Assembly: GCF_004214795.1 (NCBI RefSeq)
Contig: NZ_CP035928.1
Span: 2,170,001 to 2,234,000 of the forward strand
Source: Malaciobacter pacificus
GTDB lineage: Bacteria; Campylobacterota; Campylobacteria; Campylobacterales; Arcobacteraceae
Length of the DNA: 64,000 bases
Direction: 5' to 3'
Shown here: positions 9,129 through 46,011 of the stretch, in pieces
Layout of the letters: each line of letters begins with the position of its first letter
Numbering within the stretch: the stretch's first letter is position 1
Notes under the pieces: model-generated
What the model saw: the letters and a program-made list of their open reading frames with translations, nothing else
Told to the model about the DNA's origin: nothing
Databases searched by the model: none
Program-made: the position numbers and the translations under genes

Positions 9129-10616
9129 ATGAGTGCAGATATTCTTTCATTTATCATATTTTTACCAGCAGTTGTTGCATTTGGTTTAATGCTTACAACA
9201 AGGGATATTAACACAATTAGAAATATTGCATTTTTAACTACAACTGTTATTCTAGCTCTTGTATTAAAAATTTATATTGAATTTGAACCAAGTTCAGGTA
9301 TGCAATTTGTTACAAATGTAGCTTGGATTGAGACTTATGGGATTAATTATTATATTGGACTTGATGGTTTTTCTTTAACAATTTTAATGATGATTGCAAT
9401 ACTTATTCCAACTTCTTATTTACTTTTATGGGAAGGAAAAACTAAAGGTTATTGGATAAATATGCTTTTAGTTCAAAGTGGTGTTACTGGAACTTTACTT
9501 TCACTTGATGTAGTTTTATTCTACTTCTTTTGGGAAGTTATGCTTTTACCTGTATTTTTAATGATTGGTCAATATGGATTTGGAAATAAAGTATTTACTA
9601 CTATTAAAGTAACTGTTTACACAATGGTGGGTTCACTTCTTATGTTTGTAGCAATTTTATATCTTGGAGTTGCTTATCATAATGAATTTGGAGTTTGGTC
9701 ATTTGCTTATGATGAACTAACAAAAATTACTACTATTGGATATGATGTAAAAGTTTGGTTATTCTTAGCATTTTTAGCTGCATTTGCTATTAAAATACCA
9801 ATTTTCCCACTTCATACGTGGATTATGGAAACATATAAAAATGCTCCTACAGGTGCTGTTTTCTTATTGTCTTCAATTATGGCCAAACTAGGAGTTTATG
9901 CAATTGTTAGATTTATGATTCCAATTTTCCCAGATATTTATGTAGAGTTTTCAGCTTGGTTTGTAGCTATTGGATTATTTGGTTTAATTTACTTTGGAAT
10001 TGCTGCACTTATGCAAGATGATATTAAAAGAATGTTTGCATACTCTTCAGCTTCTCATCTTAGTTTTATAGCTGCTGGTATTTTTTCACTAAATGAATAT
10101 GGAATTAATGGTGCACTTTATTTAATCATTGCACACGCTATTGCAACTGGTGCGTTATTCTTATTAGTTGGTTTGATTCATGAGCAAACTGGATTTAAAA
10201 CAATCAAAGATTTAGGAGGGCTTGCAAAAAAAGCTCCTATTTTAACTTTTATATTTGCAATAATGCTTTTTGCAAATGTTGGATTACCAGGAACAAATGG
10301 ATTTGTATCAGAACTATTAATTATATTTGGTATTTATGAATTTAATCCAGCCCTTGGATACTTATCAGCTCTAACTGTAATAATTGGAGCTTCTTATATG
10401 TTATGGATGTTCCAACGAGCAATATTACAAGATAGACCTGAAGGTGCAAAAGAGCTTACAATGAGAGACTTAAAAATAAAAGAAATAATTGGTCTTACTC
10501 CTTGGGTAATTTTAGTATTCTTAATGGGCTTTTATCCAGAAATATTTATGAATAAGTTTGAGCCAACGGTAACTCACTATTTAAATGATATCTTACATAT
10601 TGGAGCAGCAAAATGA
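9129..10616 (+). CDS. nuoM: NADH-quinone oxidoreductase subunit M (proton channel)
   Basis: A 495-residue antiporter-like subunit. The start of the core is recognisable as [15 protein letters not shown]. Conserved proton-path segments are [39 protein letters not shown] and [20 protein letters not shown]. It overlaps nuoN by 4 nt and belongs to the membrane-arm part of the operon. Confidence 0.95.
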
Positions 10617-32917: not shown

Positions 32918-34600
32918 GTTTTAATCTACTCTCAAATCCCCATTTGATATAATCAATAACATTAACACACCCAAGTTTTAACAGTTTTAATCTACTCTCA
33001 AATCCCCATTTGATATAATTGAACTCTTCTAAGAAATACGCTTTTAACTGTTTTAATCTACTCTCAAATCCCCATTTGATATAATTGCAAAGACTTAAGC
33101 CAGTAAGAGCATCGCGTTTTAATCTACTCTCAAATCCCCATTTGATATAATATCTTTATCTAGTATATTTGTAAAACCTGCGTTTTAATCTACTCTCAAA
33201 TCCCCATTTGATATAATTGATTTCGCTAACAGCAGGACAACATACCCGTTTTAATCTACTCTCAAATCCCCATTTGATATAATTAGTTCTAAGTCATTTA
33301 GTGCATTATCTCTGTTTTAATCTACTCTCAAATCCCCATTTGATATAATGCAATTTATATAATCAACTTGAAGCTAATTGTTTTAATCTACTCTCAAATC
33401 CCCATTTGATATAATAATTTGAACAATGGTTCGAATGCTGGTCTTGTTTTAATCTACTCTCAAATCCCCATTTGATATAATTCTTTCAAGTTCATTTGTT
33501 TTTTGAGTATGTTTTAATCTACTCTCAAATCCCCATTTGATATAATCTCCTTTGTTTTGGTTTGGATATTCAAGCCGTTTTAATCTACTCTCAAATCCCC
33601 ATTTGATATAATTAAGATATATTTTTTAATTGCTTTAGTCATGTTTTAATCTACTCTCAAATCCCCATTTGATATAATCCTTATTGGATTAACTTTAGAG
33701 CAGGCAAGTTTTAATCTACTCTCAAATCCCCATTTGATATAATTTAGATGTAATAATTGCAATAAAACAATATGTTTTAATCTACTCTCAAATCCCCATT
33801 TGATATAATCCTATTGTCCCTTTTCCTAAGAAAGTGTTAGTTTTAATCTACTCTCAAATCCCCATTTGATATAATTGTTGATACGTTTGAGACTAAATTT
33901 AATCAGTTTTAATCTACTCTCAAATCCCCATTTGATATAATTATAGAGGTGTTTCTTATGAAACTGTTGTTGTTTTAATCTACTCTCAAATCCCCATTTG
34001 ATATAATACATCATAGCGGTTTTAGCTGTCTCAAGGTGTTTTAATCTACTCTCAAATCCCCATTTGATATAATTTGCATCATTGTAACTATTCAACGCCT
34101 GGTGTTTTAATCTACTCTCAAATCCCCATTTGATATAATCAACACTGAAATATTATAGAAAACTATTGAGTTTTAATCTACTCTCAAATCCCCATTTGAT
34201 ATAATGATATGAAGCAGGAATAGTAAAAAAGTTAAGTTTTAATCTACTCTCAAATCCCCATTTGATATAATAATTTGAGCCACTAAGAGATAAATTCTAT
34301 GGTTTTAATCTACTCTCAAATCCCCATTTGATATAATAAACTCAGATGAGATAGCAACATATATAAGTTTTAATCTACTCTCAAATCCCCATTTGATATA
34401 ATAATGCTGTAAATGCTTTGGTTAGTGGATTAGTTTTAATCTACTCTCAAATCCCCATTTGATATAATCTAAATTTCCAAGAACAACAAAAGATCAAGGT
34501 TTTAATCTACTCTCAAATCCCCATTTGATATAATAAATCATCCATTGTGATGTGTCCTTTGTGTGTTTTAATCTACTCTCAAATCCCCATTTGATATAAT
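32918..34600 (+). CRISPR. type II-C CRISPR array, 26 repeats and 25 spacers
   Basis: The 36-bp repeat begins GTTTTAATCTACTCTCAAAT and ends CCCCATTTGATATAAT. All 26 copies read identically, with starts from 32918 to 34565 spaced 65 or 66 bp, so spacers are 29-30 nt and all differ. The repeat holds a TCAAAT-CCCC-ATTTGA palindrome, and its last nine bases TGATATAAT are a perfect extended -10 element, so each repeat can start transcription on the + strand in the next spacer, as described for Neisseria II-C arrays. The mature guide would be spacer followed by the 5' part of the repeat. The array runs convergent to the cas genes. No degenerate end repeat is present. Confidence 0.97.
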
Positions 34601-34648
34601 AGAGTAGCTTTAAGCTTCGATTTTGTAGCCTTCCTAAGGCTTAAAACA
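34601..34648 (+). ncRNA. array-terminal transcript region, possible small RNA
   Basis: The -10 in the last repeat (ends 34600) would drive a transcript through this 48-nt flank into the following terminator. It contains TTTAAGC (34610-34616) complementary to GCTTAAA (34639-34645), and an alternative hairpin AGCCTT-CCT-AAGGCT (34627-34641). The sequence AGAGTAG right after the repeat is also part of the anti-repeat sequence. No function is established. Confidence 0.3.
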
Positions 34649-34999
34649 CTAAAAAACAAGTACAGTTTGTACTTGTTTTACTACTTTTTCCTCAGGTTTT
34701 TCTCTATAGTTTTCTATTACTAACATATTTTTATATTGAGCTTCTGTAATTTTTATTACTCGAATTGAACCATTTAAAGGTGATGCTAACTCAATTTTTT
34801 TCTCATATTTTTGTGCAATTGCTAAACTTTTACAAAATCTTATATAAATAGAATATTGAAACATTATAAAACCCATTTCTAAGAGTTTATTTCGAAACTT
34901 TGTATATTTTTTTATATCTTTTTTTGTATTTGTTGGCATATCAAACATTGCGAATAAAACCATTTTTCTATACCTGCTTTCTTTTGATATATTTTTCAT
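34649..34999 (-). CDS. cas2: CRISPR-associated endoribonuclease/integration factor Cas2
   Basis: 116 residues with the ferredoxin-like Cas2 start (RYRKMVLFAMFDMPTNTKKD; conserved Asp in the first strand). Cas2 dimerises and bridges two Cas1 dimers for spacer integration. It is coupled to cas1 by a 4-nt overlap. The C-terminus VQTVLVF is encoded within the operon terminator. Confidence 0.93.
   Translation of the reverse strand: MKNISKESRYRKMVLFAMFDMPTNTKKDIKKYTKFRNKLLEMGFIMFQYSIYIRFCKSLAIAQKYEKKIELASPLNGSIRVIKITEAQYKNMLVIENYREKPEEKVVKQVQTVLVF
34653..34679. terminator. bidirectional terminator between array and cas2
   Basis: Perfect 11-bp arms AAAACAAGTAC / GTACTTGTTTT with a 5-nt loop. On the - strand it runs into TTTTTT, ending the cas operon; on the + strand it faces array transcription. 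The last codons of cas2 are encoded inside it, and the stop (34649-34651) sits at its edge. Confidence 0.85.
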
Positions 35000-35868
35000 A
35001 ATTCAAATAAAATTAGTTCTTCAGTTTTTGATAAACAAATTGATTGATAATTTGCAACTATCAATTTCATACAATTTGAAACAGTCATATTTCTATCATC
35101 ATAAATAACAGTTTCATCTAGTAATTTTAATAAAGCTATTTTAATAGAAGAGTTTAAGTCCATATCTTCTTTTATAAATCTTGCAACATAGTTATCTACT
35201 ATTGGTCTAAATGGTTCTATTAAATCATCAGCTAGATTAAAAGAGTTTAATTCACTACTATGATGAATCCCAAACGCTGGATTTAAACCATAGGCTATTA
35301 AATACCTACAAATAGAACTTCTAAATATCGCATAACCAAAATTTAGTACTGCATTGTTTATATTTTCAGGATTGTTTCGTGAAAAATCTTTTCCAAATAA
35401 CTCTTTGAAATAATAAGCTGCAACTATTGCTTCAATATTTTCTTTATCATTTGATTTTATTCTAGAAATCAATAAATCAATATATTCATAGTTTTTATTT
35501 AATTTCTTTAATATCTTTGATTGATTTTTAACTTTTGAGGTAACTATATCTTTCCATATTTGATTTAGTTTTGGTTTTGAAACTATTATTTGAGACTTTT
35601 GTATTTTAGTCGTTCGGCTGTTTTTATTTATTCCTAATAAAATTGAACTTGGCATAAATTTTTTATCACAAAAAATTACATTTATATTTGATTTTGTAAG
35701 TTGAGATAAGAGTGCTGAAGTTATAGTAGTTTGCTGATTTTCAATAACTATTGTATCTATATCATCAAAACAAACTGTTGTTTCAAAATTATCAATTTTT
35801 ACAGATATTAGATTATTTTTGTAGCTTAGATATGATTTGTTTTTTATATATAGTTTTTGAAGAGACAT
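34996..35868 (-). CDS. cas1: CRISPR integrase Cas1
   Basis: 290 residues, normal for type II Cas1. The metal-binding catalytic triad regions are recognisable: Glu in ENIEAIVAAYYFKELFG, His in FGIHHSSELNSFNLADDL and Asp in the same helix followed by IEPFRPIVD. The ATG at 35868 has GAGGAG seven bases upstream; that site is the 3' arm of a 9-bp hairpin. It lies downstream of the tracrRNA. No csn2 or cas4 follows, which defines subtype II-C. Confidence 0.95.
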   Translation of the reverse strand: MSLQKLYIKNKSYLSYKNNLISVKIDNFETTVCFDDIDTIVIENQQTTITSALLSQLTKSNINVIFCDKKFMPSSILLGINKNSRTTKIQKSQIIVSKPKLNQIWKDIVTSKVKNQSKILKKLNKNYEYIDLLISRIKSNDKENIEAIVAAYYFKELFGKDFSRNNPENINNAVLNFGYAIFRSSICRYLIAYGLNPAFGIHHSSELNSFNLADDLIEPFRPIVDNYVARFIKEDMDLNSSIKIALLKLLDETVIYDDRNMTVSNCMKLIVANYQSICLSKTEELILFEL

Positions 35869-35897: not shown

Positions 35898-35968
35898 AAA
35901 AAAACTTTTGCGGGACTAAATCGTCCCTTGTTTTAACCAGACTATCAAATCCCCATTTGATATGAGAG
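35898..35968 (-). ncRNA. tracrRNA of the type II-C system
   Basis: Located on the - strand between cas9 and cas1. GGGGATTTGA, AGT and TTAAAAC match, in order, the complement of the first 24-25 bases of the CRISPR repeat, with two short mismatched segments between them that would form the usual bulge in the repeat:anti-repeat duplex. Next comes AAGGGACGATTTAGTCCCGC, a 5-bp nexus-like hairpin (35912-35927), then seven T residues (35898-35904). TATAAT lies at 35975-35980, right after the cas9 stop, giving a start near 35968 and an RNA of about 70 nt. Confidence 0.8.
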
Positions 35969-35974
35969 TATTTT

Positions 35975-35980
35975 ATTATA
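35975..35980 (-). promoter_or_regulatory. -10 box of the tracrRNA promoter
   Basis: On the - strand this is TATAAT, immediately after the TAA stop of cas9. Its distance of about 7 nt to the predicted start places the anti-repeat at the 5' end of the RNA. Confidence 0.65.
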
Positions 35981-38900
35981 TTATTTCTTAAACTCTTCAT
36001 AGGAAATATCTCCTTGATAATTTATAAATACTTTTCTTGCAATTGTATCTTTATTTAAAGTCATAAAAATTCTTTTTACTTCTTTTCTATTTAAGGACTT
36101 TAACTCTAACTTATTATTGCTACCAGCAATATTACCACCACCATTAAAAATAAAATACTCTTTTGTAGACTCTTTTAGATTTTCAATTTCTAAGATATCA
36201 CCTTTTTGAATAGTAATTTTGTCTTCGTAATCTTTTATAAGGGCTATTTTCTTTTCATTTATTTTTGGTGGGATATTATTTCTTATAGAAGAAAAATAAT
36301 TTAATCCTATAACTTGACCTTTTGAAGTATTAAATAAATCCACATTTAATGTAGTGTCATTTAGTTTTGCAACAAATGGAATATCTTTTTCTTTTAATTC
36401 TTTGTAAACATCAAGTGATAATCTTTTTAATCTATCTTTTTGAGTTTTATCAGTAATTATTAAACTATCTGCTTTCGAGGCACTTGAAGTTTTTACTTTT
36501 ATATTTCTAACTATTTGTTTTAAACCTTTTTTTGTAATAAAAAAACAAGGTTCATTTTGTAATAACTCATTATCTTTTTTTAGTTCATCTAGTCTAAATA
36601 ATTTATCTTTTATAGCTATTGTTTGCTCTGTATCTTCATAGTTTTTTTTGTTTGGTAGTGCACCTTTTAGTTCAATTATCTCTTTTTTAATATTTGAGAT
36701 ATTTTCTCTAGTAATCAATAATTTATTTTTGTACTCTAATAAAGCATTTTTAATATTTTCTTGTTTTGGTAAATCCAAATGAGAGATTAAATCTTCAACT
36801 TTTTTATTTACCTCTTTATCACTTATATCTTTTCCGTAGTTATCAAATAAAAGATTTTTATCGATAGCTTTTTTATCGATTTGATAAAACTCTTCTTTCT
36901 CTTTATCTAAGTATAGTTTTACATTTCCATCTTTAAATCCTACTACATTATCTCTTTTTTTAATTACTGGGCAAATATATATCTCGTTGTTTTCATATCT
37001 CTTAACTTTTTCTTTTATAAATTCTACTATATTAACTCCATCACTTGTGATTGGAAATCTAGTTTTGATTTTTTCTAATATCTCTTTAGTTTTAAATCCA
37101 TTTTCATTTTGTTTAAAAAAGTCATTTAAAGCTTTTTTAGCAGATTCATTTAAAAGAGAAATTATTATTGCATCAATAGTGTGATGATAATTAGTTTGTC
37201 TATCTTTTTTATCATCTTCATTTTTAGGTTGAACTTTATCAACACCCCAAAGTCTTTTAAGTTCACTTATAGCTTTTCCAGTAACTCTTATTACATTTTG
37301 ATTTGTTTCACCTTTCCCAAATTCATTTTGTTTTGGGAACAAGTAATGTTCTAAATAATTAGAGATAATCTTTGTAGCACTTCTAGTATCATTTAAAAAC
37401 CTATCTTCAAGGTTTTCTTTTTCCCAGTTTTTATTTATATTTTCTTCATTAGTTAGCCAAAAAATCTTACTAGTGTTTGTTAATTCTTTTTTTACTCTTG
37501 AAGTAAATTCTTCCCAACTATTTTTTGACTTTAAGTATGCTATTGGATGCGTATTCGATTTATCCTGATTATGTTTTTTTAAAACTAATATTTTATTTTT
37601 ATAAGAGTTTATCCATATCTTACTTCTTGGGATAAAATGTTCAACTTCTGTTTTTTGTTCATCAAGTGCATCTTCTAAAGTTAAAGGTTCTCCACTGTAA
37701 AGACACTTTGATTTTTGTTCAATTAATAATCTTGCTCTTTCGATATTTTTTTTACTTAATTCACAGTTATCTGATAGAAGTAGTTTTTCAGCAGCTTTTA
37801 TTTCTTTTCTACTATTTGCTTGAGCTTCTTTTATTTGTTCTTCTTCAGTTTTTGAGTTTAATTCTCTTGCTGTTTCAATAATAATCTTATCTATTTTTCC
37901 ATATTGTGATATTAAGTCATTTATTAATCTTCTTAAAATAGAAATTACTCTTTTTACATTTGGAGAGACTAAAGGCTGATAAAAAATATGTTCTCTTTTG
38001 AAGTTTTCAATATTTTTCTCAAGCCAAATTAAATCTTTTTCAGAAGGATTTAGTGGAAGTAAATAAGAGTAAGGTTCCATATTTAAATATTTTCTGAAAT
38101 ATCCTAAATCAGCTAAACTATCATGATAATTTTTACCTGATTTCATTTTTTCTAAAATTTCTTCAATAAAGCATAATGAAAATGATGCATATGTATCTTT
38201 AATCCCTTTTGAAACTTTCGATAGTTCTTTAATTGTTTCATCATTTAAAAGATTCTCTTCATCAATTTTTTTAATCTCTTTTAAAATTTGCTCTTTATTT
38301 ACAAAATAAAATATTTTCTTTAAAATTTTAGAATATAAATCTTTATGAGTTTTAAAAATGTCTAAATCAGTCTTTTTAAATATTTCCAATAACTGTACAT
38401 GAATACCAATATCAAGTACGGTTTCATCTTGTTTATTTAAAGTTTCAATTTTAATATTTTTTAATCCCGTTTTATCAAAAATATTTTTAGTATTTATAGT
38501 TTTTGTAGGTGGTCTTTTTAACCATAATTCAATTGTGTTATCAATTTGTTCTTTTGTTGGAGTAAATATTTCTCCAGTTTTATCATTAAAAATCAAATTA
38601 CCTGAAATAGAATTTTCAATTCTTTGTCTAATAGTTAATTCTATACTCGAAATATGTGATTTAAGTACTCTTTTTTGTGGATTTCTATGAAACTTATTAT
38701 AAAAACTACAGTAACCGACCATATCTTCCATACTCTTTAATGATCTTTGTTCAAAGACTCCTTTTGAATTTTCATTTACACCATTTATAAGCTTATTTTT
38801 AAGACTATCATATATTTCAATAGTTTCAAAAAGCTCTTTATTTTCTTTTTGTGATTCTAATAATATTTCTAATTCTTCTTTCCATAAGTTTCTATCTAAA

Positions 38901-39487
38901 GAGTTATTGTAATTATCTTTTTTATTTCTAATGGCAATATTTGTAAAACCATTTTTTTCTAAATTAAATTTCTTATTTAATAAAACTTGTGAAGGTATAG
39001 ATAATTCATTTTTTAAATAAAGCTCTTTATTTTGAGAAATAGCTTCATTAATAACTCCTTCATCATTTGAATCTTCAGTTTTAAATTGATTAGAATAGCC
39101 TCTTCTTGTTATGATTGAGTAAAGAGAAAATGTAAAATCATCTTTAGATAAATTTTTGCCATTTACAGCTTCTTGTCTTAAGATATATGGATCTTTATCT
39201 TTTGATAATTTATTAAAATATTTAATAGGTTTTGTAACAATACTTTTTTTAGCTAAGTTAAAATCACTTAATAGTTTTCTAACAATGCCATTTCGTCTAC
39301 TTTTTCTTTCATTTCTTCTTCTACTACTTCTAAAAGCTCTTCTATCTTCAGCTTTTATATATTCACTGAAAATTATACTATTTGAAGTAAGCTCTTTAAA
39401 TATAGTCTGACCATTTTCTATACTTATTTCATTTAGTGAAAACCCTATACTATTTGTACCAATATCTAATCCTAAAACTTTTTTCAT
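35981..39487 (-). CDS. cas9: Cas9, type II-C RNA-guided endonuclease
   Basis: 1168 residues, in the compact II-C size range. RuvC-I: KVLGLDIGTNSIGFSL with catalytic Asp8. The arginine-rich bridge helix follows (DRRAFRSSRRRNERKSRR). RuvC-II: IDKIIIETARELN with Glu538. HNH: EVEHFIPRSKIW with His617, and KKHNQDKSNTHP containing the catalytic Asn. RuvC-III: YHHTIDAII with His768/His769 and Asp772. All catalytic residues are present, so the enzyme should be active. The HNH segment is similar in style to C. jejuni Cas9. It is first gene of the locus, preceded by GAGGAATAGGGT and the shared direct-repeat promoter. The PAM cannot be deduced here. Confidence 0.96.
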   Translation of the reverse strand: MKKVLGLDIGTNSIGFSLNEISIENGQTIFKELTSNSIIFSEYIKAEDRRAFRSSRRRNERKSRRNGIVRKLLSDFNLAKKSIVTKPIKYFNKLSKDKDPYILRQEAVNGKNLSKDDFTFSLYSIITRRGYSNQFKTEDSNDEGVINEAISQNKELYLKNELSIPSQVLLNKKFNLEKNGFTNIAIRNKKDNYNNSLDRNLWKEELEILLESQKENKELFETIEIYDSLKNKLINGVNENSKGVFEQRSLKSMEDMVGYCSFYNKFHRNPQKRVLKSHISSIELTIRQRIENSISGNLIFNDKTGEIFTPTKEQIDNTIELWLKRPPTKTINTKNIFDKTGLKNIKIETLNKQDETVLDIGIHVQLLEIFKKTDLDIFKTHKDLYSKILKKIFYFVNKEQILKEIKKIDEENLLNDETIKELSKVSKGIKDTYASFSLCFIEEILEKMKSGKNYHDSLADLGYFRKYLNMEPYSYLLPLNPSEKDLIWLEKNIENFKREHIFYQPLVSPNVKRVISILRRLINDLISQYGKIDKIIIETARELNSKTEEEQIKEAQANSRKEIKAAEKLLLSDNCELSKKNIERARLLIEQKSKCLYSGEPLTLEDALDEQKTEVEHFIPRSKIWINSYKNKILVLKKHNQDKSNTHPIAYLKSKNSWEEFTSRVKKELTNTSKIFWLTNEENINKNWEKENLEDRFLNDTRSATKIISNYLEHYLFPKQNEFGKGETNQNVIRVTGKAISELKRLWGVDKVQPKNEDDKKDRQTNYHHTIDAIIISLLNESAKKALNDFFKQNENGFKTKEILEKIKTRFPITSDGVNIVEFIKEKVKRYENNEIYICPVIKKRDNVVGFKDGNVKLYLDKEKEEFYQIDKKAIDKNLLFDNYGKDISDKEVNKKVEDLISHLDLPKQENIKNALLEYKNKLLITRENISNIKKEIIELKGALPNKKNYEDTEQTIAIKDKLFRLDELKKDNELLQNEPCFFITKKGLKQIVRNIKVKTSSASKADSLIITDKTQKDRLKRLSLDVYKELKEKDIPFVAKLNDTTLNVDLFNTSKGQVIGLNYFSSIRNNIPPKINEKKIALIKDYEDKITIQKGDILEIENLKESTKEYFIFNGGGNIAGSNNKLELKSLNRKEVKRIFMTLNKDTIARKVFINYQGDISYEEFKK

Positions 39488-39520: not shown

Positions 39521-39553
39521 ATAATAACATATAATTGTCTCAGAAATGACTCA
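39521..39553 (-). promoter_or_regulatory. cas9 promoter with direct-repeat operator
   Basis: Read on the - strand: TGAGTCA (39547-39553), TTTC, TGAGACA (39536-39542), nine bases, then a -10 box TATTAT (39521-39526). Transcription would start about 26 nt before the cas9 ATG. The same layout is found upstream of two other genes at 40071 and 45979. Confidence 0.6.
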
Positions 39554-39593
39554 ATATAATAAATTCAAAGGGAAATATAACAAAAAAAGAAGA

Positions 39594-39620
39594 AAAAACT
39601 AGAGAAAAACTCTAGTTTTT
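39594..39620 (-). terminator. terminator of ridA
   Basis: Perfect 11-bp arms AAAAACTAGAG / CTCTAGTTTTT with an AAAAA loop. The ridA stop codon is inside it. A/T tails allow use in both directions. Confidence 0.8.
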
Positions 39621-39998
39621 AAATGCAATTACATCAACTTCAACTAAAACATTTTTAGGTAAAGTTTTCACTGCTACAGTTGCTCTTGCAGGTGCAGTTT
39701 GGGCTTGAAAATATTGTGCATATACTTCATTAAATGCTACAAAATTATCCATATCAGATAAGTAACAAGTAGTTTTAAGTACATTTTCAAAAGAAGAGTT
39801 TGCCTCTTGTAATACTGCTTTTAAATTTTCCATTACTTGTTTTGTTTGAGCTTGAATATCATCACCACCTACTAATTCCATTGTTTCAGGGTCTAATGGA
39901 ATTTGTCCCGATAAAAATACTAACTTTTCAAAAGATGTACCTTGATTATATGGTCCAATTGCAGATGGAGCTTTATTAGTTGAAATTATTTCTTTCAT
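39612..39998 (-). CDS. ridA: RidA/YjgF-family enamine/imine deaminase
   Basis: 128 residues, the standard RidA length. Typical segments are PSAIGPYNQGTSFEKLVFLSGQ, QVMENLKAVLQEANSSFENV, TTCYLSDMDNFVAFNEVY and PARATVAVKTLPKNVLVEVD; the Arg in PARATV is the conserved active-site residue. RidA hydrolyses reactive 2-aminoacrylate/enamine intermediates released by PLP enzymes. Monocistronic, with a perfect TATAAT on its strand upstream and AGGAATAAA before the ATG. Confidence 0.93.
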   Translation of the reverse strand: MKEIISTNKAPSAIGPYNQGTSFEKLVFLSGQIPLDPETMELVGGDDIQAQTKQVMENLKAVLQEANSSFENVLKTTCYLSDMDNFVAFNEVYAQYFQAQTAPARATVAVKTLPKNVLVEVDVIAFKN

Positions 39999-40070
39999 TT
40001 TATTCCTTTATAATATTTAAAAAAGAAATTATACTATTTAGTTACTTTTATTTGTAAAATAATTCAAAAA

Positions 40071-40116
40071 TGAGTCATTTGTGAGACATTCTTTAGATAG
40101 AATAATTTAGTATAAT
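40071..40116 (+). promoter_or_regulatory. promoter with direct-repeat operator for the VWA/OmpA lipoprotein gene
   Basis: TGAGTCA (40071-40077), TTTG, TGAGACA (40082-40088), nine bases, then TAGAAT (40098-40103) as candidate -10 at the same distance as in the cas9 promoter. A stronger TATAAT at 40111-40116 is an alternative -10, with the boxes then just upstream of -35. Confidence 0.55.
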
Positions 40117-40135
40117 TTATCGACAAAGGAAACAA

Positions 40136-41608
40136 ATGAAAAAAATTAGCTTTTTATTGTCTATTTTGGCAATTTTTGTATTTACAGGATGTGTTAATGT
40201 AAACATGAATGAACTACAAAAATTAAACCCATTTAAAGACTTTAACAAGAAATATACTTCTGATAAAGATGTATTTTTAATGATTCTTGATGGATCAGGA
40301 AGTATGAACGGAAAAGATGACTATGGTTTGGTTAAAATTGAAGCAGCCAAAGATATCATCAAAGATATTTCATTAAAACTTGACCCTACAAAAACTAACG
40401 CTGGTTTAGTTAACTTTTCAAATGGTTGTTATAGTACAAAATTACTTGTAGAACCAAGTAATAATAACTTCAACAATATTATCACTGCTGCGAATAATAT
40501 TATTCCAAATGGAAATACTCCTCTTGCTGCGTCTATTAGAAAAACAGGTCAGATGATGAGTAATATTGATAAAAATATCAATATAGTAATTATTAGTGAT
40601 GGAGAAGAGACTTGTGGTGGAAATCCAGTTTATGAAGCACAAAGATTAAAACAAATCTTTGGAGATAGAATTAATATTTTTGTAATTGGTTATTCTGTTG
40701 ATTCAAAAATTGAGTATCAATTAAAACAGTTAGTTTTGGGGAAAGGTGTATATTTCAAAGCTGAAGATGGTAGTAAACTAAATGAAGTTCTTGATAAAAT
40801 TACAGATGAACTAAATATTAAAGATTCTAGTTGGACATCAGGTGTTTATAATTTTAAAATCAACTTTGATTCAGGTTCAAGTAAAGTTAAATCTCAGTAT
40901 CAAGAGCCAATTAAAAAATTAGCTAACTACTTAAAAAACAATAACTATGGAGTTGAAATACAAGGGCATACAGACTCAGAAGGTAAAGAGAAATATAATA
41001 AAAATCTATCTGAAAAAAGAGCTCAATCAGTTAGAAAAGAGTTACTAAAACATGGTGTAAATGAAAATAGAATTTATGCTATTGGTTATGGAGAACTTGC
41101 TCCAATTGCATCAAATTCTACAAGAAATGGTAAATTCCAAAATAGAAGAGTTGAAGCACATATTATTAAAAGTGGTGGATTAAATGTAGATTTAATCAAC
41201 AATGCTAACTTCTCAAAACCAGTAAATGTTAAATATGCAGATAAAAACTCTTTTGTTGGTTATTATAAAATGACTGATAATAAAAGAACATACGACCAAT
41301 ATCACTTATATATAAAATTATATGCAAATAATACAGCTTATGCAGCTGAGTTCTTTGGAAGTGGAAAAGTAGATAGAGATGAGAAAATTGTGTGGAAATA
41401 TAATAATTCAACACAAAAAATCTTTATGGACTGGAAAAATGGTGGAGAAATAGATGCATATATTAAAGGTAATACGAATAACTTTAATGCAACTACAACA
41501 TGGTCAAATGGTAAACAATCTATTACAAACTTCTCAAGAATCTCAAAAGAAGAGATGAATTGTATGGATAGAAAAGGAAAATACGTAAATAACCAGTGTA
41601 TTTACTAA
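40136..41608 (+). CDS. lipoprotein with von Willebrand A and OmpA-like domains
   Basis: 490 residues. The lipoprotein signal MKKISFLLSILAIFVFTGC gives lipidation at Cys19. A VWA domain (about residues 45-225) has an intact MIDAS start DGSGSMNG and later ISDGEE. An OmpA-like peptidoglycan-binding domain (about 230-345) has IQGHTDSEGKEKYNKNLSEK and FQNRRVEAH. A C-terminal domain of about 130 residues with two late Cys is unassigned. It likely anchors in a membrane and binds peptidoglycan while the VWA part contacts a protein partner. It carries a direct-repeat promoter shared with cas9. Confidence 0.85.
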   Translation: MKKISFLLSILAIFVFTGCVNVNMNELQKLNPFKDFNKKYTSDKDVFLMILDGSGSMNGKDDYGLVKIEAAKDIIKDISLKLDPTKTNAGLVNFSNGCYSTKLLVEPSNNNFNNIITAANNIIPNGNTPLAASIRKTGQMMSNIDKNINIVIISDGEETCGGNPVYEAQRLKQIFGDRINIFVIGYSVDSKIEYQLKQLVLGKGVYFKAEDGSKLNEVLDKITDELNIKDSSWTSGVYNFKINFDSGSSKVKSQYQEPIKKLANYLKNNNYGVEIQGHTDSEGKEKYNKNLSEKRAQSVRKELLKHGVNENRIYAIGYGELAPIASNSTRNGKFQNRRVEAHIIKSGGLNVDLINNANFSKPVNVKYADKNSFVGYYKMTDNKRTYDQYHLYIKLYANNTAYAAEFFGSGKVDRDEKIVWKYNNSTQKIFMDWKNGGEIDAYIKGNTNNFNATTTWSNGKQSITNFSRISKEEMNCMDRKGKYVNNQCIY

Positions 41609-41634
41609 AAAACTAGAGATTTTCTCTAGTTTTT
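41608..41634. terminator. bidirectional terminator
   Basis: Perfect 12-bp arms AAAAACTAGAGA / TCTCTAGTTTTT with a TTT loop, between the convergent lipoprotein and Nudix genes; both end within it. The stem sequence is the same as that of the ridA terminator 2 kb to the left. Confidence 0.85.
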
Positions 41635-42399
41635 CTTAGGGAAAAAGAGTTCAAAATCTCTATTTATATGACTTAAGACTTTTTCATTTTCTCTAATAAA
41701 ACTTTTATTTGAAATAGCAGCTTTTACTATAGCTTTAGAATAATCAAGAACATTTTCATCAACTAAATATTCATCTACATCAACCCACTTTGCATCTTCT
41801 ATTTCATCACTATCTTGAATATTTATCTCATGACTAATGGGTTTTGCTTTACAAAGTATATACAAATTTGATTTATGAAATTGATGTGGATAAAAATGTC
41901 CTAAAGATATTATAGACTCAAACTCAACTTCTATTCCTGTCTCTTCTAAAACTTCTCTAGTAGCAGCAGTTGATATCATCTCCCCATCATCAATATGACC
42001 ACCAGGCAATTTATAGCCTACAGTTGAGATTCTTTCTTTTATAACTAATAATTGATTATTTTCATTTATAACAACAACCCCCACGCCTAAAGTATGATTT
42101 GCAGCTGTTGGAATTATTGCATTTTGTTTTAATCTCTTTACAACTAAAATATAATTTTCTGCACACGAGTGAAAAAAGAATCCTTTGTTAGTAGCTATTT
42201 TTATAAAATCTGACTTTTCAATTGGTATATAAATCCAAATTAAAAACCTTTTATTGATAGTTTCATTTATTAAATAATCAAGGTTTATCTCAAATTCTTC
42301 TATCTGTTTTGGTAAATCTTTAGAGTCGATTGTTATACCATTATATGGGTCTAAAATAGTTTTAAAACACCCAATGTTTTCTACACTTGTATTTTTCAT
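41626..42399 (-). CDS. Nudix hydrolase with N-terminal accessory domain
   Basis: 257 residues. The Nudix box is complete: GGHIDDGEMISTAATREVLEETGIEV (pattern Gx5Ex7REUxEExGU) near residues 150-175. The about 100-residue N-terminal part (KNTSVENIGCFKTILDPYNG ... FFFHSCAENYILVVKRL) resembles the pre-Nudix domain of NUDT6-like proteins, with acetyltransferase-like character. Substrate unknown (typically a nucleoside diphosphate derivative). Ends in a convergent terminator. Confidence 0.85.
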   Translation of the reverse strand: MKNTSVENIGCFKTILDPYNGITIDSKDLPKQIEEFEINLDYLINETINKRFLIWIYIPIEKSDFIKIATNKGFFFHSCAENYILVVKRLKQNAIIPTAANHTLGVGVVVINENNQLLVIKERISTVGYKLPGGHIDDGEMISTAATREVLEETGIEVEFESIISLGHFYPHQFHKSNLYILCKAKPISHEINIQDSDEIEDAKWVDVDEYLVDENVLDYSKAIVKAAISNKSFIRENEKVLSHINRDFELFFPKKN

Positions 42400-42490
42400 A
42401 AATCCATGATAACTAGAATATAATTAATTAATGCTTTTTTCGTGCAACTATCTAGTGTTAAAATCTTTAGGAAAAATTAAAGGAGTTAAA

Positions 42491-43603
42491 GTGAGTAAAT
42501 TTTTATATATAACAGACCAAAATGAATTTACAGATCATAGTTTTATAGGCCCTTTATTTCAAAAATATTTAACAAAACATTTTGATATACAAACTACATT
42601 TTTTTCTGATTATAAATTTGATATTGAAGTTCATGATAATGGAACAATAATTATTCCTGAGAAATTCAAAGGTAATTTAATCAAAGAATTAGAAAATGCA
42701 GATATAGATTTATCTACTTTTGATTTTGTAGTTGTAAGAAATAGTACTGATTTATTAAAAGAAGTATTAAAAAAGAAAAATGAATATAACTTTAAAGTTG
42801 GATTTAGATTATCCTTTCCAAAAAGAATTGCAAAACTTCAAACAGATGAAGCTAATAATAAAAAATCTTTACTTGATGTTATTTCAAATAAAGTTAAGAC
42901 TTATTCTGAAATAAATCTAATCAATGAATGTGACATCTTTTTACCAACATCTTTTAAGATGAAAGATGATTATTTTAAAGATGTAAAAACAAGAAGCTTT
43001 GTAATTCCTTCTGCTATTGACCCTGATAATTTAACACAGAATATTCAACATACTGGTAGTGAAAAAAGATTTTTTTATGCAGGTACATTAGATAAGTTAA
43101 GAGAATTTGAAACTATTTTAGAGGCTTTTTCAAACATAAATAGTTCTAACTATAAACTTATGATTTCCACAAAAGACCCAGAATATTTACAAAAATTACT
43201 TGATGAATACTCTTTATTAAAAGATAATATAGAGATTTTTGAAACAAAAACAAGAAAAGAGTTACTTGATGTGATTGCAAAAGCTGATATAGGATTAGCT
43301 GCTTTACCTGATATTGAACTCTTCAATAGTTCAACACCTATGAAAGTTTTAGATTATTACTCTAGTGCTATTCCTTGTATTATGAGTAATAATGAAAATA
43401 ATAACTCTATATTTGAAGATAATATTAGTGCTTGGTTTGTAAATTTTGATGAAGACTCAATAAGAGAAAAATTAGAATATATTATTTCTCTTTCAAAAGA
43501 GGATGTAACACAAGTTGGTATAAATGGTCAAAATAGGCTATTATCAGTTAGAAACTATGAAAGAATTGCAGCAGATTTAGCACATCAGTTAAATATACTA
43601 TAG
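42491..43603 (+). CDS. glycosyltransferase (GT4-like)
   Basis: 370 residues from a GTG at 42491, chosen because AAAGGAG lies just upstream; the in-frame ATG at 42431 has no ribosome-binding site and would overlap the divergent promoter region. The C-terminal half has the GT-B donor-domain pattern (KRFFYAGTLDKLREFETIL, KADIGLAALPDIELFNSSTPMKVLDYYSSAIPCI). Likely transfers a sugar to a surface glycan or protein. It lies 9 nt before a chemotaxis receptor gene, not in a polysaccharide cluster, so its acceptor is unclear. Confidence 0.75.
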   Translation: MSKFLYITDQNEFTDHSFIGPLFQKYLTKHFDIQTTFFSDYKFDIEVHDNGTIIIPEKFKGNLIKELENADIDLSTFDFVVVRNSTDLLKEVLKKKNEYNFKVGFRLSFPKRIAKLQTDEANNKKSLLDVISNKVKTYSEINLINECDIFLPTSFKMKDDYFKDVKTRSFVIPSAIDPDNLTQNIQHTGSEKRFFYAGTLDKLREFETILEAFSNINSSNYKLMISTKDPEYLQKLLDEYSLLKDNIEIFETKTRKELLDVIAKADIGLAALPDIELFNSSTPMKVLDYYSSAIPCIMSNNENNNSIFEDNISAWFVNFDEDSIREKLEYIISLSKEDVTQVGINGQNRLLSVRNYERIAADLAHQLNIL

Positions 43604-43612
43604 GAAAAATAA

Positions 43613-44878
43613 ATGAACAAAAACTTATTAATTTTATCACTAATTGCTATTATATCTACAATAATAGTTTTAATTAATTCAAATCAAGATACATTATCTA
43701 TTTTATTTGGAGTAATTGCTGTTATTTCTATGATCTCTATAAACTTCATAAATAATAAAAAAGAAGAAAAAGAGACTTTTATTGAAGAAAAGGGAATTGA
43801 TAATTATGATGAAGAGATATTAGATGAGATACTTGAAGTATCTTATCAGTCAAGCATAGGAGAGTATGATTTAAGAGTTAAAGGTACTTCTTCAAATGAA
43901 AAACTTCAAAAAATTGCAACAAATATCAATACAACTCTAAATCAATTTAGAGAAACAATTGATTCAATAAAAAATTTCATGGAAAAATATAATAGCAATG
44001 ATTTTACAATCCAAATAGAAAATAAATACAATAATGACTTAAAAGAGTTAATTGATGAAATTAATCAAGTAAATATCAAAATATCAAAAATGCTTCTTAG
44101 TAGTTTAAAAAATAACACTAAATTAAATGCAAACTCTGATTCACTAAAAGCAAATATGGATTCTTTAGGAAATAGTGTAATCCAACAATCTGCTACATTA
44201 GAAGAAACAGCTGCTGCAATTGAAGAGATTACAAGTACAGTTATTAACAATAATAAAAATGTACATGATATGTTAACTTACTCAGATGAATTAAGTAGTT
44301 CTATTGAAAAAGGTTTTTCAAATGCAAAAGAGAATGCTTCATTAATGGATAAAATTAATGAAAAAACTAATGCAATTGAAGAAGCAATTGTTGTTATAGA
44401 CCAAATTGCATTCCAAACTAATATTCTTTCATTAAATGCAGCCGTTGAAGCTGCAACTGCTGGTGAAGCTGGAAAAGGTTTTGCAGTTGTTGCTCAAGAA
44501 GTTAGAAATCTAGCTAGTAGAAGTGCAGAAGCTGCAAGTGAAATCAAAAAATTAGTTAATGATGCTAGTGAAGTTACAAAACAAGGTAAAACAGCTTCAA
44601 ATGATATGATTAATGAATATACAAGTATCAATGATAATATCGATAAAACAAAAGTAATTATAAATGAAGTTTCAAATTCATTAAAAGAGCAAGAAAGAGG
44701 AATTGAGCAAATTAATAGTGCAGTTGCTCAACTTGACAAATCAACTCAAGAAAATGCTACAAGAGCTCAAAATACTTTAGAAGTTGCAAATATCAATCAT
44801 GAAATGGCTAAAAGAATGGTTGTTGATACAAATAAAACAAACTTCTTTGGAAGAGATGAATTTAACTCAAAAAGTTAA
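43613..44878 (+). CDS. methyl-accepting chemotaxis protein without a periplasmic sensor domain
   Basis: 421 residues. Two closely spaced hydrophobic segments (about 4-21 and 27-46) with almost no periplasmic loop are followed by a short linker region and the cytoplasmic signalling domain. The conserved hairpin tip reads [20 protein letters not shown] and then [19 protein letters not shown]. With no external sensor domain it may sense redox, membrane or cytoplasmic cues. 9 nt after the glycosyltransferase gene and likely co-transcribed. Confidence 0.88.
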
Positions 44879-44901
44879 ATTCATTCTATCTTTTTTAGTA
44901 T

Positions 44902-45951
44902 CTATCTTAAAGAGATATTTAAAATTTTGTCATAGTAACCTTGCTGATTATAATAAGTAGAATCAACTGGATTTACATACTCTTTTTTACCATTAATAAT
45001 ATTACTTCTAACATGAACAACTAATTTATCTAAATTACTTATATCAACTACTAGTTTAATAATTTTTTCTTCATTAGCTCTCCATTTATTTGTCCATCCT
45101 TCACTTAAAAGATAAGAAGACCTAACGGTTTTTCTAATTTCTCTATTCCAAATCTTTGTACCTTTTTTATAAAGGTTAACATTATCAAAACCTATTTTTT
45201 CACTTTTGATTATTCTTTTTGTAGTTTGAAATTGAGGGAAAGAGATAGAAATTCCTCCTTTTCCATTATCAACTAAATTTTTTGATTTTACAGTTAAAAT
45301 AAGCTTATTACCAACAATTTCATGTGATGTTTTTAAATCAATACTATCATTTGATGAAACTAAGTCTCTTTTTTTGTTTTCATTTTTTACAAATCTATCT
45401 GCATCTTTATAGTGATTAAATTTTTTTAATGGAACAATAAACGTCTCTCCATCTTTATCAAACTCTCCATATACATACATAAAAGCTCTATTTCCTGAAC
45501 CACCATATTTATTCATAACTACTACATAAGCAGCTTTTTTACAAGTTGCATCAAGATTAGGTGCTAATTTTTTACAAGTATCTTTTGACAACCATTCTCT
45601 AACTTGATAATCTTCTAAAAAGTCTTGTTTTTTTGATAAACACTCTTTTAAATTTACTGCAGCTAATCCATATCCGTAACTTTCAATATCTATACCATAA
45701 GCTTGCTTTTTATACCAGTTAATATTTCCTTCAAAATATTTTCCTGGATTAGATGTAAAATCATCCTCATAGGCTTTATTCAATCTAAACTGTGTTTGGT
45801 AATAATCTGGATAAGATTCCACAAAATCATCTTGAAAAGTAAAACAACCAAAAGACAAAGAGTTCCCTTTGTATAGCCAAGTTTCATTCTCTTTTGCGTT
45901 TAAAGAAACTGCTAAAAAAGCAAACAAAATAGAAAAAAAGATTTTCGTCAT
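44902..45951 (-). CDS. exported protein of unknown function
   Basis: 349 residues with a Sec signal peptide (MTKIFFSILFAFLAVSLNA, cleavage before KEN). The mature part has Cys in SFGCFTF, LKECLSKK, KDTCKKL and DATCKKA, suggesting two disulfides. The second half looks beta-rich (NKLILTVKSKNLVDNGKGG, KIIKLVVDISNLDKLVVHVRS). No family recognised. Its promoter carries the direct-repeat operator shared with cas9 and the VWA/OmpA lipoprotein gene, so an envelope role is a reasonable inference. GGGGAAT precedes the ATG. Confidence 0.65.
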   Translation of the reverse strand: MTKIFFSILFAFLAVSLNAKENETWLYKGNSLSFGCFTFQDDFVESYPDYYQTQFRLNKAYEDDFTSNPGKYFEGNINWYKKQAYGIDIESYGYGLAAVNLKECLSKKQDFLEDYQVREWLSKDTCKKLAPNLDATCKKAAYVVVMNKYGGSGNRAFMYVYGEFDKDGETFIVPLKKFNHYKDADRFVKNENKKRDLVSSNDSIDLKTSHEIVGNKLILTVKSKNLVDNGKGGISISFPQFQTTKRIIKSEKIGFDNVNLYKKGTKIWNREIRKTVRSSYLLSEGWTNKWRANEEKIIKLVVDISNLDKLVVHVRSNIINGKKEYVNPVDSTYYNQQGYYDKILNISLR

Positions 45952-45978
45952 TATATTCCCCTGTTTATAAAATAAAAC

Positions 45979-46011
45979 ATTGTAACAAAGAAATGACTCA
46001 CAAATGACTCA
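45979..46011 (-). promoter_or_regulatory. promoter with direct-repeat operator for the unknown exported protein
   Basis: Read on the - strand: TGAGTCA (46005-46011), TTTG, TGAGTCA (45994-46000), nine bases, then TACAAT (45979-45984). The spacing is identical to that in the cas9 and 40136 promoters. Confidence 0.6.

Follow-up and report, generated by a model that had tools for sequence, protein, structure and literature searches.

In Malaciobacter pacificus, cas9 shares an 18-nt operator of the form TGAGTCA-TTTN-TGAGWCA with genes of the cell envelope, and this operator is present at about 20 promoters of the genome, more than the three at which it was first noticed. It is read here as probably the activator site of an OmpR/PhoB-family regulator governing these promoters, most likely the response regulator RR2 together with its adjoining kinase. 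What the sequence itself establishes is the operator, its geometry and targets, the co-variation of its spelling by clade, and its association with RR2. Two-component regulation of CRISPR-Cas has so far been described in few species, where it mostly concerns a single kind of defence. The sequence evidence here links Cas9 in this species, and in other species Cas6 together with several restriction systems, to a common operator that envelope genes of several genera also carry, and to a single candidate sensor pair. This offers a testable answer to the question of when a little-characterised bacterial group turns on immunity, newly captured defence genes being wired into a pre-existing circuit.

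The operator in the window

The window is the whole stretch of DNA that was analysed, 64,000 nucleotides in length (C1:2170001-2234000). The features that matter are the following:

33000-34640, minus strand: CRISPR array, 36-nt repeats every 66 nt, continuing below 33000
34649-34999, minus strand: cas2, an ORF overlapping the end of cas1, named from its position alone
34996-35868, minus strand: cas1, an ORF whose strand and order agree with the cas9 loci of relatives, named from position and sequence
35981-39487, minus strand: cas9 (type II), with 33 nt from the -10 box to its start codon; PADLOC, and NCBIfam TIGR01865 at 388 bits against a cut-off of 100
39521-39526, minus strand: cas9 -10 box TATTAT, 9 nt past the operator, a spacing shared by 16 of 17 exact genome sites
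39536-39553, minus strand: cas9 operator TGAGTCA TTTC TGAGACA, by motif match
40071-40088, plus strand: VWA/OmpA lipoprotein operator TGAGTCA TTTG TGAGACA, by motif match
40098-40103, plus strand: VWA/OmpA lipoprotein -10 box TAGAAT
40136-41608, plus strand: gene for a lipoprotein with VWA and OmpA domains (Pfam OmpA 6.6e-24, VWA 9.5e-12; lipobox FTGC)
44902-45951, minus strand: gene for an exported protein with a signal-like N-terminus
45979-45984, minus strand: exported-protein -10 box TACAAT
45994-46011, minus strand: exported-protein operator TGAGTCA TTTG TGAGTCA, by motif match

Each of the three genes carries a TGAGTCA-TTTN-TGAGWCA site upstream, and the three -10 hexamers all begin exactly 9 nt past it, on the strands and at the positions reported in the first-pass annotation. 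The exported protein matches no Pfam or NCBIfam family. With up to three mismatches allowed, the window holds four operator matches against 0.28 expected, a number reached in none of 100 shuffles; single TGAGTCA, at 12 copies against 8.3 expected, is not enriched. The other TGAGTCA copies noticed at first had been placed singly inside genes; the eight remaining ones do overlap ORFs, save that the one among them at 10614 merely abuts an ORF start.

The operator in the whole genome

The first-pass annotation had counted three promoters for this operator; these are real, but the number is too low. A genome scan of the kind it proposed, run over 2,657,991 bases with the 4-nt linker left free, yields 17 exact copies of TGAGTCA-N4-TGAGWCA. 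The linker is TTTN in all 17, and the -10 box, which lay outside the search pattern, is found as TANNAT at exactly +9 in 16 of them, the last having TATAAT at +8. When operator and -10 are searched together with up to three mismatches, 21 sites are recovered, and none by the reversed-pattern control. Frequent copies within coding regions had been named as grounds for doubt, and 17 of the 18 genome sites checked overlap no ORF, the exception touching only a doubtful 5'-extended reading frame.

An A-rich stretch upstream is common to the genome sites, whose flanks are otherwise unrelated except in one duplicated pair (L003 and L006, in HlyD-like sequence). That pair is the one point in favour of repeats spread by a mobile element or alike by chance; given the unrelated flanks of the remaining sites, the empty reversed-pattern controls, and the fact that almost all sites are intergenic and oriented toward a gene, such an origin has practically nothing to recommend it.

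Targets in this genome

The envelope targets comprise many lipoproteins and exported proteins, including the VWA/OmpA protein and cadherin- and Ig-domain lipoproteins, a small lipoprotein gene ahead of CdsA-like/DXR-like genes, an exopolysaccharide operon whose first gene encodes a UDP-GlcNAc 2-epimerase, a type II secretion operon headed by GspG, and two genes resembling HlyD. Among defence and nuclease genes, the operator stands before cas9 (with cas1 and cas2 behind it), before a type I restriction-modification operon encoding HsdM, a specificity subunit and HsdR, and, with one mismatch, before SbcCD. Hemerythrin (two mismatches) and several genes of unassigned family complete the set. The claim that cas9 shares its operator with envelope genes is therefore borne out. 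A phosphate regulon, another suggestion, finds no such backing: no phosphate gene was recognised among the targets, the repeat, as already remarked at first reading, is not the CTGTCAT of the Pho box, and RR2 scores 67.3 bits on the PhoB equivalog TIGR02154 against a cut-off of 296.2. Phage stress, suggested as well, is a hypothetical inducing signal.

In an operon downstream of site L008 lies a gene (L038:5530-6201) with an OmpR-type DNA-binding domain, in which a receiver was not detected; it may be a second regulator under the control of the regulon.

The operator in related genomes

A search of 60 relatives for the exact motif came back nearly empty because the spelling of the operator differs by clade. 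With a degenerate 33-nt pattern the operator is recovered from 29 of 104 Arcobacteraceae genomes (reversed-pattern control 0), and from a single one of 355 same-order genomes outside the family (reversed control zero). Its spelling is (A/T)GAGTCA-TTTG-(T/A)GAGTCA in genus g11, TGAGACA-NTTN-TGAGACA in g19 and TGATACA-NTTG-TGAGACA in genome G016. Position 5 of the half-site changes in both halves together, being T/T in g11 (45/45 and 43/45) and A/A in g19 (29/35 and 34/35), as is expected if one DNA-binding domain reads both.

The targets in g11 and g19 again include envelope genes (lipoproteins, Wzz/EPS operons). One target keeps its position in several genera: it is a lipoprotein gene that follows the same 442-aa gene and, in g1 and g11, precedes a CdsA-like gene. 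The g11 defence targets belong to about ten unrelated families: an orphan cas6, two kinds of HsdR, Mre11/SbcC-like pairs, a WYL regulator with a PD-(D/E)XK nuclease, and Mrr-type, HNH type IV-like, NERD-helicase, ResIII-PLD type IV-like and AAA_15 ATPase genes. The orphan cas6 occupies one fixed locus in five g11 genomes (L132:6417-7160, L213, L221, L223, L229), next to the same ~1159-aa gene in all five, and neither a CRISPR array nor a further cas gene was detected in the fetched region. These five cases are one vertically inherited locus, and the WYL cases probably another, so independent events are fewer than sites. PADLOC was run on 38 g11 target genes and, for comparison, on 51 genes of the same regions lying 3.5 kb or more from a site. 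About 13 of the targets were matched by models for Cas6, WYL or restriction, and five of the 38 are the single inherited orphan cas6; the comparison genes are defence-rich as well (Cas10, Cas7, Septu, RT-SLATT). The g11 sites thus sit in defence islands, and no enrichment of defence genes among the 38 targets over the 51 neighbours is demonstrated.

Geometry and mode of action

The operator is a head-to-tail direct repeat of 7+4+7 nt with an 11-nt period, and its 9-nt distance to the -10 box is fixed in nearly all sites across several genera. So constant a gap is more readily explained by an activator in contact with RNA polymerase than by a repressor. The absence of a -35 element is not diagnostic of activation: sigma70 promoters of Campylobacterota are not known to have a conserved -35, so that a missing one proves nothing. 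In the opposite mode, the bound dimer would exclude RNA polymerase, and cas9 and the other targets would be on when the kinase is silent. CovR, likewise of a two-component system, acts in this way, directly repressing a distal cas9 promoter of Streptococcus agalactiae (PMC12216829). A repressor, however, has no need of a fixed 9-nt spacing over several genera, which a polymerase-touching activator does need, and repression is judged improbable here.

The constant distance would also suit a recognition element of an alternative sigma factor. Against this, the block is an 18-nt tandem repeat of 11-nt period with coupled half-site changes and an ordinary TANAAT -10 box, and sigma-factor elements are not known to take this form; this explanation is very hard to credit.

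The candidate regulator and its sensor kinase

RR2 is the best candidate for the regulator. The RR2 gene is intact in this genome (G000; C1:1557676-1558401, outside the window). Its receiver domain scores 80.7 bits on Response_reg against a cut-off of 30.2, the acidic, Asp and Lys residues of the receiver (E26, D27, D70, K120) being invariant in the RR2 alignment, and its C-terminal winged helix is barely above the cut-off for Trans_reg_C (26.9 against 26.2 bits). The RR2 profile matches the full-length OmpR-family structures 1kgs (E 3e-27) and 1ys6. Within g11, RR2 is present in 9 of 11 operator-bearing genomes and 1 of 21 others (p = 1.8e-5). Family-wide, the figures are 25 of 29 and 2 of 75 (p = 1e-17, a value uncorrected for phylogeny and inflated by shared ancestry), RR2 orthologues thus occurring in 27 genomes, 25 of them with operators. 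Four genomes have the operator without an RR2 orthologue at the threshold used (G074, G080, G102, G119), and two have RR2 without a match to the degenerate operator pattern (G077, which is 76% complete, and G110). RR1 was the only control regulator whose distribution was compared.

RR2 adjoins several g19 operators and is followed by the gene of a 935-948-aa sensor kinase. The operator lies in the gap between the two genes in G032, G107, G098 and G109; in G107 it comes directly after RR2, and the contig ends ahead of the kinase. Even in the distant g6 genome G034, whose RR2 homologue is 36% identical to that of G000, the gap contains the variant TGAGTTATTTATGAGTTA-N9-TATTAT. When contigs were scanned for RR2 relatives, a single strong record came up, and its operators occupy the same places as in G105. 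Presence and absence across genomes, together with operators between the RR2 and kinase genes, point to RR2 as the candidate.

Could another OmpR-family regulator bind the operator instead? RR1, the receiver-less protein of L038:5530-6201 and a g19 RHH-like/winged-helix protein come into question. RR1 (C1:1303832-1304500) adjoins site L008 and diverges from it, but nearly every g11 genome has it, whether or not there are sites, and in G032 the operator was not found upstream in its neighbourhood. Since its near-universal distribution does not track the operator, RR1 was rejected. At the position of L038:5530, G032 has an unrelated gene. The g19 protein came under suspicion because the most recurrent g19 site precedes its gene: most g19 genomes have a conserved operator directly in front of it, and in G087 a short homologue is encoded 1.7 kb from two sites. 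Close full-length homologues were nevertheless seen in g19 only, the best G000 matches being C-terminal halves of ordinary response regulators, and this candidate was dropped for want of a close homologue in G000. Taken together, a regulator other than RR2 is unlikely, if the least unlikely of the alternatives. In most g19 genomes (operator L076:1516-1533, gene 1594-2007; also L029, L083 and L091), the operator upstream of this gene is in opposite orientation and without the usual -10. The encoded ~138-aa protein has a weak Trans_reg_C match, no receiver, and an N-terminal part that by eye resembles RHH; possibly the protein modifies the regulon and is itself autoregulated. G016 encodes a 151-aa homologue (L128:6198-6653), adjoined on the opposite strand by a second SBP-type sensor-like gene (L128:6759-9629).

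Returning to RR2, its kinase has in G032 two SBP_bac_3 stretches, PAS_9, HisKA and HATPase_c; neither a receiver nor an HPt domain was found in the G032 chain, and in several genomes a separate receiver protein gene adjoins the kinase gene. The tandem SBP domains suggest a small periplasmic ligand as the signal. In G000 an IS-like element, which has terminal inverted repeats and a transposase-like ORF, interrupts the kinase gene (C1:1558404-1562791 = L175:10404-14791) around codon 265. The two parts of the gene can still be aligned to the intact g11 kinase. No operator was found upstream of the G000 RR2 gene itself. With the kinase split and RR2 lacking an operator of its own, the pathway may be altered in this genome, where the regulon might be off, fixed, or under another kinase.

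A coherent mechanism can be proposed. The kinase, with its two periplasmic SBP (Venus-flytrap) domains and its PAS domain, would phosphorylate RR2, encoded by the adjacent gene. RR2 would then bind as a head-to-tail dimer, each subunit reading one TGAGWCA half-site, and the bound dimer, held at a fixed helical position directly upstream of the -10, would aid initiation by sigma70 RNA polymerase. Its regulon of about 20 promoters would span lipoproteins, exopolysaccharide, secretion, cas9-cas1-cas2, type I restriction-modification and SbcCD. Binding by RR2, activation over repression, and the inducing signal are all three what we infer from sequence relations. More tentatively, though still quite possibly, the Arcobacteraceae would possess a two-component regulon of defence and envelope genes which horizontally moving immune systems (cas9, cas6, type I/IV restriction, Mrr, SbcCD, WYL/nuclease) repeatedly join through one operator, a periplasmic sensor raising defence together with surface remodelling.

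The cas9 locus

The evidence connecting cas9 with the regulon is at species level and comes from one genome. The operator was not found upstream of cas9 in any of the eight family orthologues checked, two of which, 71-73% identical, are in g19 genomes with RR2; the link is therefore not conserved. The conservation in Arcobacteraceae that the first-pass annotation proposed to check thus holds for the operator but not for the cas9 site. The genes flanking cas9 differ from case to case among relatives, which means that the CRISPR locus moved and acquired its operator in the lineage of the window; the capture appears recent. Three of the ~20 genome operators lie within 6.5 kb (window 39536-46011), two of them 0.5 kb apart, a clustering that suggests local recruitment of the cas9 promoter beside an older regulon member.

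In this locus, cas1 and cas2 are probably in one transcript with cas9. Each 36-nt CRISPR repeat (GTTTTAATCTACTCTCAAATCCCCATTTGATATAAT) in the array at 33000-34640 has a TATAAT end and may carry a -10 box of its own, a feature of some type II-C arrays. Between cas9 and cas1, at about 35941-35989, a partial repeat may mark the tracrRNA.

Comparison with known systems

Kinases of the EvgS/BvgS type have tandem periplasmic SBP domains followed by PAS, HisKA and HATPase. The RR2 kinase has the same series, but without a receiver or HPt in its own chain, a separate receiver protein gene lying alongside in several genomes. For the operator, the closest model is the PHO box, originally defined as two 7-nt direct repeats with a 4-nt linker, which PhoB binds head-to-tail (PMC4415409). 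The likeness to PhoB/OmpR-family sites pointed out in the first-pass annotation holds good, repeat geometry and OmpR-family winged helix being the same; the sequence is another, the targets are without phosphate genes, and RR2 falls far under the PhoB equivalog cut-off.

Surface and immunity are also linked by the Rcs stress response of Serratia (Smith 2021, pmid 33398095, as cited in PMC12216829), likewise an envelope-linked phosphorelay over surface and CRISPR-Cas immunity. Going by its title, control there is inverse, whereas here operator orientation and spacing are equal at both classes of target; regulator family and operator also differ from those described here. In Marinomonas mediterranea, the histidine kinase PpoS and response regulator PpoR control two CRISPR-Cas systems and phage resistance (PMC8523701). 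This too is a kinase/regulator pair over CRISPR-Cas, but one resembling BarA/UvrY with a CsrA cascade, and the abstract describes no shared direct operator (PMC8523701). CovRS likewise has a two-component regulator at a cas9 promoter, tying immunity to surface and virulence genes, although binding is here predicted. CovR represses a distal promoter, whereas the present geometry suggests activation; RR2 is of another lineage, and further defence systems share the operator here.

No prior description of this operator or regulon was found in the literature searched. Two-component control of cas9 (CovR) and of CRISPR-Cas (PpoS/PpoR) and the Rcs link between surface and immunity are already known; what is new is the operator, the candidate system with its spread through the family, and the gathering of several unrelated defence systems and envelope genes under one operator.
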